Positions 1,483-41,934 of a DNA stretch of 42,261 nucleotides are shown here, piece after piece. Origin of the DNA: Desulfobacterales bacterium. GTDB taxonomy: Bacteria > Desulfobacterota > Desulfobacteria > Desulfobacterales > Desulfosalsimonadaceae. Below the pieces are notes generated by a model that had not been told where the DNA came from, did no database searches, and saw only the letters and a program-made list of their open reading frames with translations. The stretch is taken from assembly GCA_018334555.1 (NCBI GenBank), contig JAGXLR010000005.1:1-42261 (forward strand), given 5' to 3'. Each line of letters opens with the position of its first letter. Position 1 is the stretch's first letter. The translations under genes and the position numbers were made by a program.

Positions 1483-1635
1483 TGACAATCTCGTAAAAAG
1501 TCGATTTTGGGATGGCAAAGAAAAAAGTTCAAGATCAAGGCGCGCAAATTCCGAGGAATGCAGCGTACTTAGCTGTACGTGAAATTCCGAGGAATGCAGC
1601 GCAACACAGATATTGGACTTTTTACGAAGCCATCA
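1483..1635 (+). mobile_element. Family A MITE-like element (copy 1), TSD AAAT
   Basis: A 153-bp element beginning TGACAATCTCGTAAAAAGTC and ending GACTTTTTACGAAGCCATCA, which are imperfect inverted ends. Inside are two direct copies of AATTCCGAGGAATGCAGCG around a small palindrome (CGTAC/GTACG). AAAT flanks both sides (1479-1482 and 1636-1639). The flanks join into a family D sequence that is intact at 24961-25060 and 3315-3480, so the empty site is visible. Other copies: 3073-3226, 12117-12269, 14642-14795, 40145-40297 and truncated 13553-13661. Confidence 0.88.
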
Positions 1636-2565: not shown

Positions 2566-2985
2566 ATGAGCAACCCACCGTATATAGGCAAATCCAACAT
2601 TTCCGCCATAACCGCCAAACTGTTCGGCTTGATCCTCAAGATGCCCGTGGAAGAGCGCGAGACAATGCTCGCTGAACTAGAAGCCCGTCAGTCCCCATCC
2701 AAACGCGACTATCCCCGCAAGCAATACTTTATGTCGGTACAATACGTCGTAAACGAACGCCTATATGACGGGTTTATTAAAAATATCAGTCCCACCGGTA
2801 TGCTTATAGAAGCCTCCCACGAAGACACAACGGATATCCATACAGGCGATCCTGTCATTCTGACATTCAAGCATCCGGATGCCAATGAGCAGGTAAAGGT
2901 GACAGGTGATATCATCCGAAAAGACGAAGAGGGGATAGGGGTCAATTTTCATCAATTGCTGAGCAATTTTTTGACAACCTCGTAA
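2566..2985 (+). CDS. PilZ domain protein (putative c-di-GMP receptor)
   Basis: A 139-residue soluble protein. An N-terminal helical segment of about 45 residues is followed by a PilZ domain: the basic RDYPRKQYF motif near residues 48-56 (RxxxR-type) and NISPTGMLIEA near 72-82 (D/N-x-S-x-x-G). Both are c-di-GMP contacts in characterised PilZ proteins. Binding here is inferred from the motifs. The last codons (LTTS and the stop) are read from the family B repeat starting at 2972, so the original C-terminus has probably been replaced or trimmed just after the domain. A c-di-GMP-producing enzyme is encoded at 21598-23688, though linkage of the two is not shown. Confidence 0.85.
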   Translation: MSNPPYIGKSNISAITAKLFGLILKMPVEERETMLAELEARQSPSKRDYPRKQYFMSVQYVVNERLYDGFIKNISPTGMLIEASHEDTTDIHTGDPVILTFKHPDANEQVKVTGDIIRKDEEGIGVNFHQLLSNFLTTS

Positions 2986-3029
2986 GAAGCGATTTATTCC
3001 GCCGCGGCGGCATTTTTGCAGAAAGTAAC
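2972..3029 (+). repeat. Family B short repeat overlapping the PilZ stop codon
   Basis: It begins TGACAACCTCGTAAGAAGCG and ends GCAGAAAGTAAC, the same layout as the other B copies. Its fourth to fifth codons in the PilZ frame provide the TAA stop. Confidence 0.75.
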
Positions 3030-3034
3030 TCTAA

Positions 3035-3294
3035 CCTAAAATGAGCGTTTCAATTTTTTGAAGATTTAATTTTGACAGTCTCGTAAAAAGTCAGTTTAAA
3101 GATGGCAAAGTAAAAAGTTCAAGATCAAGGCGCGCAAAATCCCGAGGAATGCAGCGTACTTAGCTGTACGTGAAATTCCGAGGGATGCAGCGCAACACAG
3201 ATATTGGACTTTTTACGAAGCCATCAATTTTTATTTTATTTTTAGGATATTGGATCATTTTTTAAATCAAAAAATTTGAAACGCTCAATTTAGG
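3035..3294. repeat. Family C palindromic-ended element, split by element A
   Basis: The ends are CCTAAAATGAGCGTTTCAA and TTTGAAACGCTCAATTTAGG, near-perfect inverted repeats. A very similar uninterrupted copy is at 37725-37834. Without the family A insertion and one ATTT duplication the length would be about 102 bp. A half copy lies at 40428-40487 and a longer element with the same ends at 41727-41934. Confidence 0.82.
3073..3226 (+). mobile_element. Family A MITE-like element (copy 2), TSD ATTT
   Basis: A 154-bp copy flanked by ATTT on both sides (3069-3072 and 3227-3230). It has inserted inside a family C element, and the corresponding empty site can be read at 37725-37834, where TTTAATTTTTATTTTATTTT is continuous. 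The direct duplication of a 19-bp internal motif is present as in the other copies. Confidence 0.9.
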
Positions 3295-3314
3295 TTTTAC
3301 TGTATGCTTGAGGG

Positions 3315-3480
3315 CACTGAGACGATTCATCCAATTTTGTCATTTCGAGCGGCAGCGAGAAATCTTTGACAAACAAGATCCCTCGTCGCTTTCGCTCCTC
3401 GCAATGACAGAGAGCTAAGCTTCTGGAATATTAATATATATTTTCAAATTACTTAGAAGCGGCTTATTCCGCAGCCATCA
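3315..3480 (+). repeat. Family D dispersed repeat, long copy
   Basis: The most complete uninterrupted copy: CTGAGACGATTCATCCAATT, then the GTCATTTCGAGCGGCAGCGA core and its CTCGCAATGACA partner, then an AT-rich AATATTAATATATATTTTCA part, then CTTAGAAGCGGCTTATTCCG and CAGCCATCA. It ends 6 bp before the stop of the minus-strand oxidoreductase gene. With the B, C and A repeats it fills the whole gap 2986-3485. Confidence 0.78.
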
Positions 3481-3485
3481 AAGAT

Positions 3486-5654
3486 TCACTCCCGCCCTTT
3501 TGGAGGCGCGATCTCCGCATGCATCTGAGCGCTGGCCCGCCTGGCACAGTCCAGGCAGATCCGCTTTCCAACGAGCGACGGGCTGATCTCCCGGACCCGG
3601 CGCATGATATAGTCATGGTAGCGGGCCGGTCCCAATACGGCGCCACAAACTTCACAATACTCGAGTTTCAAACGGTTCAGGACGGTGCCGCATAGGGACA
3701 GAATCCGTTCGCCGTCCTTGTCTTCGATTTGCATGGCCCCTGTCGGACAGTTGTTGGCGCAGGCGCCGCAGGCGATACACCGTTCAGCGGTAATTTTCAA
3801 ATCAGTCGGCCCGGGATTGTCAAAGTCCATATACCCCAACTGCAGGGCGTCGACCCCCATTTTTTCCCGGCAGATGTAAACGCACTGGCCGCAGCGATTA
3901 CATACGTCACAGCGCAGACAACGCCTGGCCTCGTTTTGGGCCCGGGGCTCGTCCAGTCCCAATCGAACCTGCTGAAACGTGATGCGCCGGCGGTCATTTC
4001 CGAGAAAAGGCACCTGCGGACGTTTAAGATCCATTTTTATACCGGCCGACATTTGGCAGTAGTCCATCCGGCAGCGGCGAACCGGCACGGGCGGCAGCTC
4101 CGGCTGGGGGATGCCCTCAAAATAACGATGAATAGCAAAGGCCGCCTTCTTGCCCCCGGCAATGGCTTCAACCACTGTAGCCGGACCGGTCACTGCATCG
4201 CCTACGGCAAAAATACCGGCCTGATGGGTTTGCATACTAACGGTATTGACGCGGAGGGTATTGCGCCGACTCCACCCAACCTCTTCAAAAGCTTCCAGAC
4301 CGGCCCCCTTGACCTCTTGGCCAATTGCCGGAATAACCACATCCACCGGCAGCACATGATCGCTTCCCTCGACCGGTACCGGCCGCTGTCTGCCGGATTC
4401 ATCGGGTTCACTGAGTTCAGCCCGCATACAGACGATGCCGGTGACATGGCCATTCTCTCCCACGATCTCTGTGGGAATGGTCAAATAGGAAAACTGCACG
4501 CCCTCTTCTTCCGCCTCAACGACCTCTTCATCGTGGGCCGGCATCTGGTCATGGGTCCGGCGATAGAGGATGATGACCTCCTCGCAACCCAGCCGCAGAG
4601 AGGTTCGGGCTGCGTCAATGGCGACATTGCCCCCGCCGACGACGGCTACACGCCTGCCGGGCCGCATATGATCCCCCAGACTGACCCGGCGTAAATAGTC
4701 CACTGCGGAAAACACCTCCGGGTAGTCATCTTCTCCGGGAATTTTTAACTTATATGAACCATGGGCCCCAATGGCCAACAGGTAGGTTTGAAACCCTTCG
4801 GACTCGAGTTCTCCGAATGCAATATCTTTTCCCATTCTTGTATTCAACCGAATATCAACGCCCAGTTCCCGGATCATATTGACCTCCCGGTCAATGACTT
4901 CACGTGGAAGCCGGTATCTGGGAATACCCACCATCATCATACCGCCGGCAACAGGCAAGGCCTCGATCACGGTAACCCGGTATCCATTGAGCGCCAGATA
5001 ATAAGCGGCGGTCAACCCCCCCGGTCCGGCGCCGATAATACAAACCTTGCGGCCGTTATCCGGCATCTTCGGCGGATTCCTGTATTCCATGGCCGACATC
5101 GCTTTTTCAGCCGCAAAGCCCTTTAAATCCATGATCGCGATCGGACTATCCATACGCCCCCGAACGCACATGAACTCGCAAGGATGAGTACAGATCAACC
5201 CGCAGGTCCAGGGAAAAGGGTTGTCTTTACGGATAACCTCAATGGCTTCCGCATAACGGCCCTGTGCAATGAGCATGAGATAACATGGAATGTCGATACC
5301 CGCAGGGCAAGCCATCTGACAGGGAGCCGGCGTCAACATGGGGCAATCACCGGTGGGACAGGTATGTGTCTGGATATGACTCTCAAATACTTCCCGGTCA
5401 GCCAGTACCCGCTTCCGTATTTCTTCGCCCAAGTCCCGGCATTCAGGCGTCAACGCCTCGGATACCAGTTGATCCGCCAACTCGAGGATACTCGCCAAAT
5501 GGGCGTCCCCGGCCGTTCCCTGGGAGACATCATAAATCAGATCGAAGATCTCCGAAGCTTTCTGCTGACAGCGGGGATGGGTCAACTCCCTGGATTGCAG
5601 CCTGGCTTTCAGCCAATCGTGCGTCGTTCTGACTCTGCAGCGCTTCTCATCCAT
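3486..5654 (-). CDS. FAD-dependent pyridine nucleotide oxidoreductase with Fe-S domains (GltD/NfnB-like)
   Basis: A 722-residue cytoplasmic flavoprotein. Residues 1-95 form a helical N-terminal part. A cysteine-rich Fe-S region follows (about 100-165, CPTGDCPM to CGLICTHPCEFMC). FAD-binding GAGPGG is at 208-213 and the NAD(P)H site VVGGGNVAIDAAR at about 338-350; GDAVTGPATVVEAI at 485-498 closes the flavin site. The C-terminus adds a cysteine cluster at 580-595 and a second, CIACGACANNCP, at 626-637, then a CxxC pair at 667 and 700 that looks like a zinc ribbon. Such proteins move electrons between NAD(P)H and ferredoxin-like carriers. The gene lies 36 bp downstream of the ferredoxin gene, with AGGA before its ATG. 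The physiological donor and acceptor are unknown. Confidence 0.85.
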   Translation of the reverse strand: MDEKRCRVRTTHDWLKARLQSRELTHPRCQQKASEIFDLIYDVSQGTAGDAHLASILELADQLVSEALTPECRDLGEEIRKRVLADREVFESHIQTHTCPTGDCPMLTPAPCQMACPAGIDIPCYLMLIAQGRYAEAIEVIRKDNPFPWTCGLICTHPCEFMCVRGRMDSPIAIMDLKGFAAEKAMSAMEYRNPPKMPDNGRKVCIIGAGPGGLTAAYYLALNGYRVTVIEALPVAGGMMMVGIPRYRLPREVIDREVNMIRELGVDIRLNTRMGKDIAFGELESEGFQTYLLAIGAHGSYKLKIPGEDDYPEVFSAVDYLRRVSLGDHMRPGRRVAVVGGGNVAIDAARTSLRLGCEEVIILYRRTHDQMPAHDEEVVEAEEEGVQFSYLTIPTEIVGENGHVTGIVCMRAELSEPDESGRQRPVPVEGSDHVLPVDVVIPAIGQEVKGAGLEAFEEVGWSRRNTLRVNTVSMQTHQAGIFAVGDAVTGPATVVEAIAGGKKAAFAIHRYFEGIPQPELPPVPVRRCRMDYCQMSAGIKMDLKRPQVPFLGNDRRRITFQQVRLGLDEPRAQNEARRCLRCDVCNRCGQCVYICREKMGVDALQLGYMDFDNPGPTDLKITAERCIACGACANNCPTGAMQIEDKDGERILSLCGTVLNRLKLEYCEVCGAVLGPARYHDYIMRRVREISPSLVGKRICLDCARRASAQMHAEIAPPKGRE

Positions 5655-12116: not shown

Positions 12117-12269
12117 TGACAGTCTCGTAAAAAGTCGATTTTGGGATGGCAAAGTAAAAAGTTCAAGATCAAGGCGCGCAAATTCCGAGGAATGCAGCGT
12201 ACTTAGCTGTACGTGAAATTCCGAGGAATGCAGCGCAACACAGATATTGGACTTTTTACGAAGCCATCA
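12117..12269 (+). mobile_element. Family A MITE-like element (copy 3), TSD AAAA
   Basis: A 153-bp copy starting TGACAGTCTCGTAAAAAGTC and ending ACGAAGCCATCA, flanked by AAAA on both sides (the flanking A-runs make the duplication less certain than in copies 1, 2 and 4). It lies between the divergent acyl-CoA ligase and DUF3795 genes and, with the promoter at 12078-12107, fills most of gap 12004-12303. Confidence 0.88.
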
Positions 12270-13239: not shown

Positions 13240-13353
13240 CGGTCTAAGCTCCCATTCGACATTGGTTCCACAGGTTGATCGCCTCTTCGGCGGCTGCCTT
13301 TTTAATAAAAAAAAAGAAACCGCCTGGCAAGCCAGAATATTGAAGACAAAGCT

Positions 13354-13411
13354 TGATGGCTTCGTAAAAAGCGGTTTATTCCGCCGCGGCGGTATTTTTG
13401 CAGAAAGTAAC
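13354..13411 (+). repeat. Family B short repeat
   Basis: It begins TGATGGCTTCGTAAAAAGCG and ends GCAGAAAGTAAC. It is followed after a 19-bp linker by family D (13430-13552), the same B-D composite seen inverted at 12-159. In the gap 13240-13674, the part 13240-13353 shows no gene. Confidence 0.75.
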
Positions 13412-13429
13412 TCTAAAAAACATCCGCAT

Positions 13430-13552
13430 TGTCATTTCGAGCGGCAGCGAGAAATCTTGAACAATCAAGATTCCTCGTCGCTTTCGCTCCTCGGAATGAC
13501 AGAGAGCTAAGCTTCTGGAATATTAATATATATTTTCAAGTTACTTAGAAGC
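13430..13552 (+). repeat. Family D dispersed repeat, joined to a truncated family A element
   Basis: From GTCATTTCGAGCGGCAGCGA through AATATTAATATATATTTTCA to TTACTTAGAAG. At 13552/13553 it switches directly into family A sequence (CCAATATCTGTGTTGCGC), whose first 20 or so bases are missing. Confidence 0.75.
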
Positions 13553-13661
13553 CCAATATCTGTGTTGCGCTTCCGTCCCTCGGAATTTCACGTACAGCTA
13601 AGTACGCTGCATTCCTCGGGATTTTGCGCGCCTTGATCTTGAACTTTTTATTTTGCCATCA
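13553..13661 (-). repeat. Truncated family A element
   Basis: A 109-bp remnant containing the two direct motif copies and the CGTAC/GTACG palindrome but lacking both terminal segments: one side is fused to family D, the other stops at TTTTGCCATCA. No target duplication is visible. It lies immediately after the larE stop. Confidence 0.8.
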
Positions 13662-14641: not shown

Positions 14642-14795
14642 TGATGGCTTCGTAAAAAGTCCAATATCTGTGTTGCGCTGCATCCCTCGGAATTTCACGT
14701 ACAGCTAAGTACGCTGCATTCCTCGGGATTTTGCGCGCCTTGATCTTGAACTTTTTACTTTGCCATCCTAAAATCGATTTTTTACGAAGCCATCA
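14642..14795 (-). mobile_element. Family A MITE-like element (copy 4), TSD GACT
   Basis: A 154-bp inverted copy from TGATGGCTTCGTAAAAAGTC to TTTTTACGAAGCCATCA, with a clean GACT duplication on both sides (14638-14641 and 14796-14799). Of all copies it has the best-matched ends. It lies between the divergent larE and 14872 genes; the rest of that gap (14500-14641 and 14796-14871) shows no gene. Confidence 0.92.
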
Positions 14796-18760: not shown

Positions 18761-20356
18761 TTACTCCAGCCTCGTATATTGCTTGGGATCGTAGGCGTTG
18801 CGTATGCCCTCGCCGACGAAGACCCCCAGCAGCATGACTATGAAAAGGGCCATAGAGGGATAGAGGATCAGCCACCAGGCCCACCGGTACTGCTGGGCCT
18901 GGAACAACAGCTCCCCCCAGCTCGGCGTTGGCGGCGGCAGCCCGAATCCAAGGTAATCCAGCGCGGCCAGCGCGCCGATGGCGCCAACCAGGGAAAACGG
19001 AAAAAATGTGATTACCGGCACCAAGGCATTCGGCATAATGTGCTTGAAAATAATCCTATGGGAGGGCACCCCCATGCATTTGGCCGCTTCAACAAAGGGG
19101 CGCTTGCGCAGATTCAAAAATTCCGCGCGGACATAATAGGAGATAGCCACCCAGTTAAACAAACCGTAGCAGACCAGCAAAAGCACAAAACTCCGACCGT
19201 AGATGGAGCCCATCAAAATCATGACGTATAAAAACGGAATCGCACTCCATATCTCGACCAGCCGCTGGGCCGTTATATCCAGCCGGCCGCCGTAATAGCC
19301 CTGAACGGCGCCGGCTGATATACCGAGCATCATGGTCGCGCCCACCAGCATCAATCCGAATGTAAGAGAAATCCGGAGGCCGTAAAGGATTCTCGCCATC
19401 ACATCCCGGCCGGCGCTGTCGATTCCCATAGGATGGCCTTCAACCGGAGGATAAGGAAACTGAACCGCCTCCTTATTAAATGAAGCCACGTACTGGCGCC
19501 CGTCTATCAAGAGACGAAAATCCTCCACCGGCTGTTCCAGGCGCCTCTCGAGCAGACTGAAAAGAACGTCCCTATCGTTTTCTGAAACTTGATCCCAGAC
19601 CGCCGGAACCGGGGGCAGGGGCTCCAGGGAGGGGTTGAAGCCCACATGTTTGACCTCCTGATTGCCGGCAACCACCTCCTGCAGCATCAGGCGAATGGTC
19701 TCCGGCGGCGCTTGGCGCGGTGCATAGGTCGGCAAAACCAGTTTTACCGGATCGCCCGAAGGCGTCCGAATCCTAAAGCTTTGATAATCCGCCGCCTTGT
19801 TGGCAAAGCGCCTGGATATGGCCCGCCTTATTTCTTTTGAAAAAGAAAAAAACCGATCCATTCTGATGTCTCCGACCCCGCGGTCAACGCCGCCCTTGAA
19901 AAACTCAAAAAAACGGGTACGGCAAACAGAGTAATCCTGTCGAATATCCACACTTCCCATCCGCGGCACCGGCCTCAGGGCCAGTTCGACATTTTCGGAG
20001 ACGGCAATGTCCGCGGGATCGATATCTTCAAGCGGGCCAAAGGCAATGGGGGGAAATATCATAAAGTTGTCGGGATTTTCCGCAAAAATCGGCTTCTGCC
20101 TGAGCTCCCGGTAATCCGGCCGGGTTTGTTTGCCGCTGCCGGTGAAGACATCCGCCGAATAAAAATGCACCGCCGGAAAAAAAGACGCACCGTCAAACCG
20201 GACATAGAGGGGCACACTATTACATATCAGCTCGGAAAAAAGGCTGAGGCCATACAGGAGCAAGAGGATCCACAAAGACACATAGGCGCGCTTCATCGAT
20301 TTGAAACGCAAATAGCGCTTCCGCGCCATCGGATTGCGAAACAGTTTTGCTATCAT
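18761..20356 (-). CDS. yejE: YejE-like peptide ABC transporter permease with large extracytoplasmic insertion
   Basis: A 531-residue inner-membrane permease. The start (RFKSMKRAYVSLWILLLLYG, then SLFSELICN) and the C-terminal half (GIDSAGRDVMARILYGLRIS, EAAKCMGVPSHRIIFKHIMPNA as the EAA loop, LDYLGFGLPPPTPSWGELL) match YejE. E. coli YejE is about 340 residues. The excess lies at residues 110-297, between IAFGPLED and YPPVEGHPMG, in the loop between the first TM helix and the permease core, hence outside the cytoplasm. It may compensate for or contact a binding protein. AAGG precedes ATG 20356. Confidence 0.87.
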   Translation of the reverse strand: MIAKLFRNPMARKRYLRFKSMKRAYVSLWILLLLYGLSLFSELICNSVPLYVRFDGASFFPAVHFYSADVFTGSGKQTRPDYRELRQKPIFAENPDNFMIFPPIAFGPLEDIDPADIAVSENVELALRPVPRMGSVDIRQDYSVCRTRFFEFFKGGVDRGVGDIRMDRFFSFSKEIRRAISRRFANKAADYQSFRIRTPSGDPVKLVLPTYAPRQAPPETIRLMLQEVVAGNQEVKHVGFNPSLEPLPPVPAVWDQVSENDRDVLFSLLERRLEQPVEDFRLLIDGRQYVASFNKEAVQFPYPPVEGHPMGIDSAGRDVMARILYGLRISLTFGLMLVGATMMLGISAGAVQGYYGGRLDITAQRLVEIWSAIPFLYVMILMGSIYGRSFVLLLVCYGLFNWVAISYYVRAEFLNLRKRPFVEAAKCMGVPSHRIIFKHIMPNALVPVITFFPFSLVGAIGALAALDYLGFGLPPPTPSWGELLFQAQQYRWAWWLILYPSMALFIVMLLGVFVGEGIRNAYDPKQYTRLE

Positions 20357-37574: not shown

Positions 37575-37724
37575 TTCAAGCGGGCATTGAAAATGTTATT
37601 TGTTATGAAAATGATATAGTTGCGCTCTGACAAGCATAAGCGCGTTTTTTTGCCTTTTCGGATAATCCGGTTTTTAAAAAACCATAGACAAAAATTCATT
37701 AGCCATGTTATAAATTAATGTTAT

Positions 37725-37834
37725 CTAAATTGAGCGTTTCAATTTTTTAAAAATTTAATTTTTATTTTATTTTCAGGCTATTGAATCATTTTTTAATCAA
37801 AAAATTTGAAACCCTCCGGGATTTCCAATTTAGG
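37725..37834. repeat. Family C palindromic-ended element, uninterrupted copy
   Basis: From CTAAATTGAGCGTTTCAA to the inverted end CCAATTTAGG, about 110 bp and very AT-rich. It is the intact counterpart of the A-interrupted copy at 3035-3294. It fills a third of the gap 37575-37898, in which nothing else was recognised. Confidence 0.8.
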
Positions 37835-37898
37835 TGTTACTTTTTTCAAAAGGTTTTGATAGCCTTAGTCGTATATTTCAAAGAAAGGGGGTGATCTG

Positions 37899-40144: not shown

Positions 40145-40297
40145 TGACAGTCTCGTAAAAAGTCAGTTTAGAGATGGCAAAGTAAAAAGTTCAAGATCAA
40201 GGCGCGCAAATCCCGAGGAATGCAGAGCAGTTAGCTGTACATGAAATTCCGAGGGATGAAGCGCAACACAGATATTGGACTTTTTACGAAGCCATCA
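40145..40297 (+). mobile_element. Family A MITE-like element (copy 5)
   Basis: A 153-bp copy from TGACAGTCTCGTAAAAAGTC to ACGAAGCCATCA. The flanks AAGT (left) and GAGT (right) match at 3 of 4 positions, so the target duplication has probably decayed. The internal direct repeats have diverged more than in the other copies (GAGCAG in place of GCGTAC), suggesting an older insertion. Confidence 0.85.
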
Positions 40298-41726: not shown

Positions 41727-41934
41727 CCTAAACTGAGCGATTTTCAAGTTTGCTGCAGATACGAGGAAGCGGATGTTGAGCTATAGCGGGCTATGCGAAA
41801 CATCCGCTGACAAAGTAGATGCGGCAAAATTGAAAATCCCGGAGGGTTTCAAATCTTTAAATGGGAAATTGATTTAAGCCCTTTAAAATAATATAGAAAC
41901 AAAAAATTCAAAAATTTGAAACGCTCAGTTTAGG
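41727..41934. mobile_element. Family C-ended element inserted upstream of tRNA-Ser
   Basis: About 208 bp with ends CCTAAACTGAGCG and CGCTCAGTTTAGG, a perfect 13-bp inverted repeat. TAAG stands on both sides with one-base ambiguity. Inside is a hairpin GCGGATGTT ... AACATCCGC (about 41771-41808) and an AT-rich half similar to other family C copies. It may carry its own weak promoter near its right end (TTGATT 41869-41874, TATAGA 41892-41897, 17-bp spacer). No ORF inside is credible. Confidence 0.75.

Follow-up and report, generated by a model that had tools for sequence, protein, structure and literature searches.

A short element inserted in an older repeat of a Desulfobacterales genome, best explained as a MITE with a probable IS1182-like partner

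The ISDol1 group of the ISNCY insertion sequences (ISs) comprises elements of 1.6 to 1.9 kb with target duplications of 6 to 7 bp, and its type element comes from a Desulfobacterota genome. In the IS1182 family, IS1272 replaces a stem-loop and leaves no duplication (PMC5678879). Bacterial MITEs, such as Chunjie of Geobacter uraniireducens, are short and non-coding, have terminal inverted repeats and target duplications, and occur as many intergenic copies of variable length (PMC10969869). Here, we analyzed a stretch of 42,261 nucleotides from a Desulfobacterales bacterium (the window), in which a repeat of family C at 3035 to 3294 is interrupted by an element, A. Element A has the listed features in common with bacterial MITEs, Chunjie included; however, it differs from Chunjie-type MITEs in its sequence, its probable autonomous partner, and its 6- to 7-bp duplication. 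Taken as a whole, the structure at 3035 to 3294 is, with high confidence, best explained as a MITE event, the insertion of short, non-coding A into an older C repeat.

Filled and empty sites of element A

The core of A occupies 152 non-coding bp on the forward strand (3074 to 3225), with ends GACAGTCTCGTAAAAAGTC and GACTTTTTACGAAGCCATC; it starts with GACAGTC and finishes with GCCATC. These limits were defined by the duplication analysis of 82 copies described below, together with the same end rule in autonomous ISs. The core is flanked by the 6-bp target duplication AATTTT on the left (3068 to 3073) and on the right (3226 to 3231). A preliminary description had reported ATTT on both sides of A; this tetranucleotide is present, but it forms the middle of the longer duplication. 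Without A, the C copy is 102 bp long, a short symmetric form of a 208- to 210-bp element. When its flanks (3035 to 3072 and 3231 to 3294) were joined, the resulting 102 bases aligned with 37715 to 37844 at a score of 134 (maximum of 26 in 500 shuffles), confirming the earlier proposal that the joined flanks are collinear with the C copy placed there at 37725 to 37834. That comparison copy, which had been said to carry a single ATTT, is indeed uninterrupted. However, it spans 37724 to 37834 (forward strand; 5-bp duplication TGTTA at 37719 to 37723 and 37835 to 37839) and is a deletion derivative rather than the closest empty site: approximately 98 internal bases are missing, and 10 extra bases lie near the right end. 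It is thus a different short form of C from the 3035 copy minus A. Aligned with a full-length C at locus L139 (5572 to 5780), the rejoined flanks differed at 2 of 94 bases and required no gap; shifting the join by 1 base lowered the score against full-length C from 178 to 172 or 170. Across 1.54 Mb, about half of the genome, 55 C copies were uninterrupted at the site of A. The empty site is that of a C paralogue rather than the orthologous locus of a related genome.

The outer flanks of the C copy at 3035 do not match (TCTAA versus TTTTA). At L090 (2860 to 3067), a C copy shares this left junction and is bordered by TCTAA on either side, so recombination between two C copies is a likely cause, with misassembly as a possible one. 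Assembly error also bears on the junction with A itself. The assembly is fragmented (265 contigs), with many contigs stopping within A or C. Of the 82 A copies with both flanks, 19 lack a 4-bp duplication, attributable to recombination or assembly error; a short-read assembler might have linked two halves of C through a repeated A. A misjoin would not be expected, however, to produce exact collinearity between the halves of one C form together with an exact 6-bp duplication, and further junctions between C and A, with duplications, were found on other contigs. We consider an artefact at this site extremely improbable.

Copies, duplication, and structure of element A

The earlier claim that A is a discrete mobile unit was strongly supported. 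In the 1.54 Mb examined there were 90 full-length copies (82 with both flanks), most of them 153 to 156 bp, and a twin 100% identical to the A copy at 3074 to 3225 was present at locus L031; the 6-bp duplication and a plausible transposase source (see below) point the same way. A second copy in the window lies within a repeat of another type, B (1484 to 1634, forward strand; duplication AAAATT at 1478 to 1483 and 1635 to 1640). Further copies are located at 12117 to 12269 (forward strand), 14642 to 14795 (reverse strand; 6-bp duplication AGACTT), and 40145 to 40297 (forward strand; imperfect duplication). Across the 3.24-Mb genome, the end motif of A gave 281 matches and its reversed form 0, and A-like matches were found in 46 of the 60 genomes searched, its own included.

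At least 4 flanking bases matched in 63 of 82 A copies, compared to approximately 3% for randomly paired flanks. Of the 40 copies in the 4-base class, 39 were matched one base further out on either side as well, although this outer match could be a coincidence, since A usually appears to end in T and A, and A and T are the usual target bases at these positions. Unusual terminal bases are informative in this respect: in 8 of the 11 copies with such a base, it was repeated in the flank, which identifies the duplicated unit as A-N4-T (6 bp). The terminal T and A that seem to lie in the element thus belong to the duplication, leaving 3074 to 3225 as the core. Most duplications among the 82 copies are thus 6 bp long, and some copies form another class, of 7 bp.

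The terminal inverted repeats of A are GACAGTCTCGTAAAAAGTC and GATGGCTTCGTAAAAAGTC, and no open reading frame of at least 100 amino acids overlaps 3074 to 3225. Single-stranded A forms a single long hairpin (z = −7.5) in which the right end pairs with an inner near-copy of the end. Given that some relatives match bases 29 to 154 only, A may have acquired an additional outer end. At L106 (3891 to 4198) and at 19146 to 19485, two A-type copies lie in tandem only about 4 bases apart, as if one had entered the duplication of the other. By the features tested, A is a MITE: it is short, lacks a transposase reading frame, has terminal inverted repeats and a target duplication, is dispersed in many copies, and has a partner that shares its ends.

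Candidate transposase and target choice

This partner is an IS in the same genome (locus L081, G000:C1, 132 to 2037; 1,906 bp) that encodes a 580-amino-acid transposase and has A-type ends, GATGGCACTGTAAAAAGTC and GATGGACTCGTAAAAAGTC, at 132 and 2037. About 16 of 19 end bases are common to A and this IS. Its likeness to IS1182 lies in the Pfam domains DUF772 and DDE_Tnp_1_6 of the protein and in a match to NCBIfam NF033551 (IS1182) over residues 39 to 525 (151.8 bits, below the cut-off of 270). The match to the NCBIfam ISNCY_1 model was weak (79 bits; cut-off of 325). Searches with the ISNCY_1 and ISNCY_2 families returned mostly matches without A-type ends, and it was a weak match that led to L081. 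The L081 IS resembles the ISDol1 group in size, duplication, and host phylum, a likeness by description only. L081-type ISs duplicate 6 to 7 bp; by contrast, palindromes have been described as the targets of some IS1182 members (PMC5678879).

Relatives of the L081 transposase (33 to 68% identity) are mostly from Desulfobacterota. We examined 35 of these relatives, and for 15 of them we could locate the two ends together with a matching duplication of 5 bp or more; these ISs start with GA, finish with TC, and have duplications mostly of 6 bp, sometimes 7 or 8 bp. The 6-bp duplication recurs in cultured Desulfosarcina relatives: Desulfosarcina widdelii has three related IS copies with identical ends and three different 6-bp duplications (ATAATT, AATTTT, and AAATTT). 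AATTTT is thus a target of the autonomous IS in genomes beyond this one. The duplication flanking the L081 IS is imperfect (AAATTT and AAAATT), and another A directly adjoins it. The interior of A is unrelated to the L081 IS; the link consists of the ends and the duplication, which suggest the IS1182-like transposase of L081 as the probable driver of A. Under this model, the DDE transposase of the IS would recognize the ends of A in trans, and A would insert at AT-rich A-N4-T sites via staggered cuts whose repair duplicates 6 bp, sometimes 7 bp. One such insertion would have entered the C repeat already present at 3035, creating the filled site, while other C copies stayed empty. The limits, duplication, target preference, and copy number of A were observed, as were an intact candidate transposase gene whose IS has related ends and an equal duplication length in that IS family; movement of A by the L081 transposase, and its mode (cut-and-paste or copying), are inferred.

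In several C copies, A sits at one and the same nucleotide (the window, L146, L042, and L043, as well as L138, where A lies in the opposite orientation). Such a pattern could arise if the interrupted repeat at 3035 were one copy of a composite duplicated as a unit, with no separate insertion of A. However, the A copies at this nucleotide resemble one another no more than randomly chosen A copies do (mean identity of 93.2% versus 94.0%; permutation p = 0.69), their closest relatives (97 to 100%) are nearly all A copies elsewhere, and the reversed A in L138 also argues against a duplicated unit; we regard this explanation as very improbable. Since they are no more alike than random copies, the shared-position copies represent separate insertions: A inserted there on several independent occasions, and the pattern is one of repeated hits on one favored site.

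The favored site raises the further question of whether A targets C specifically, either at a defined site or via the C hairpin, instead of through AT-richness, a reading that would be compatible with A being a MITE. In its favor, 5 of 82 A copies span the C interior compared to 0.8 expected under uniform insertion (p = 0.001). When the target preference of A was taken into account in non-coding DNA only, however, approximately 22 insertions in C were predicted, more than the 5 seen, an estimate that is rough because the coding mask was crude and many contigs were picked for A or C matches. Moreover, most A copies lie elsewhere, and the fact that the autonomous IS inserts at AATTTT elsewhere, in other genomes, also speaks against specificity for C. 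Specific targeting is thus very improbable, and the AT-rich target preference of A is enough for repeated hits on one C position.

Family C, repeat B, and the order of insertions

Full-length C elements are 208 to 210 bp long with CCTAAATTGAGCG inverted ends and, in most such copies, a 5-bp duplication; C is therefore MITE-like. One such C-like element of 208 bp lies at 41727 to 41934 in the window (5-bp duplication TAAGA), and C matches were found in 17 of the 40 genomes searched, its own included. One C copy, at L044 (2387 to 2802), contains two A insertions. None of the pairs of C ends that were checked enclosed a transposase, and candidate end pairs of 1.9 to 2.2 kb enclose host genes. IS1380 elements start with CC and duplicate 4 to 5 bp; IS1380 was considered as the parent of C, but no IS1380 match carried C ends, and these searches yielded no parent for C.

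The C copy at 3035 itself entered an outer composite repeat, B (2973 to 3479), which has A-type ends (GACAACCTCGTAAGAAGCG on the left and a degenerate GCAGCCATC on the right) and lacks a matched duplication outside them. Another B copy is uninterrupted across the left junction of C (13382 to 13416), and its TCTAA at 13412 to 13416 is the empty counterpart, on the left side only, of the C site at 3034/3035. The order of insertion in this stack is B, then C, then A. The flanks of the A copy at 1484 to 1634 rejoin collinearly onto B at 3308 to 3420, where AATTTT (3333 to 3338) is the empty counterpart; this is a second filled and empty pair within the window.

B-type repeats (13330 to 13560, 1340 to 1800, 2973 to 3479, L032, L048, L154, and L165) appear mosaic-like, with modules joined at GTTACTTAGAAG. 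Over 1.54 Mb, this junction had 42 matches and its reversed form 1; 14 of the 42 continue directly into the A interior TCCAATATCTGT. At 13549 to 13660, a B repeat is fused to the A interior and the outer ends of A are absent. A tentative and rather doubtful reading is that A, B, and C form an interacting set in which B mosaics swap modules at GTTACTTAGAAG and keep A-type ends, such that MITEs diversify by exchange and nesting, beyond internal deletion of an IS. The left end of B also supplies the last codons and TAA stop of a PilZ-domain reading frame (2566 to 2985) at 2973 to 2985 (GACAACCTCGTAA), and so insertion of B appears to have set the C terminus of this protein. On the other side of B, the gene at 3486 to 5654 has homologues, among them G001 C6 1104050 to 1106212 (82%) and G003 C60 1549 to 3708. 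In G001, a ferredoxin-like match lies some 0.7 kb downstream, which suggests that gene order differs on that side.

The preliminary description had also concluded that C existed before A. For the copy at 3035 this follows from the nesting of A within C; it does not extend to the families, whose median divergence from consensus is similar (A, 3.2%; C, 2.9%), and nesting here orders that copy only. No C inserted in A was found, which orders neither family because only about 1 case was expected by chance. Paralogous empty sites thus order single insertions, not whole families.

The A copy at 3074 to 3225 is a clean case of a miniature transposon, a known kind of element of which it is an ordinary representative. 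Its value is as a checkable MITE in Desulfobacterota with a probable transposase, for which the limits and the 6-bp duplication are fixed. Since a literature search on MITEs together with Desulfobacter found nothing on that pairing, the description of A may help to annotate Desulfobacterota genomes.
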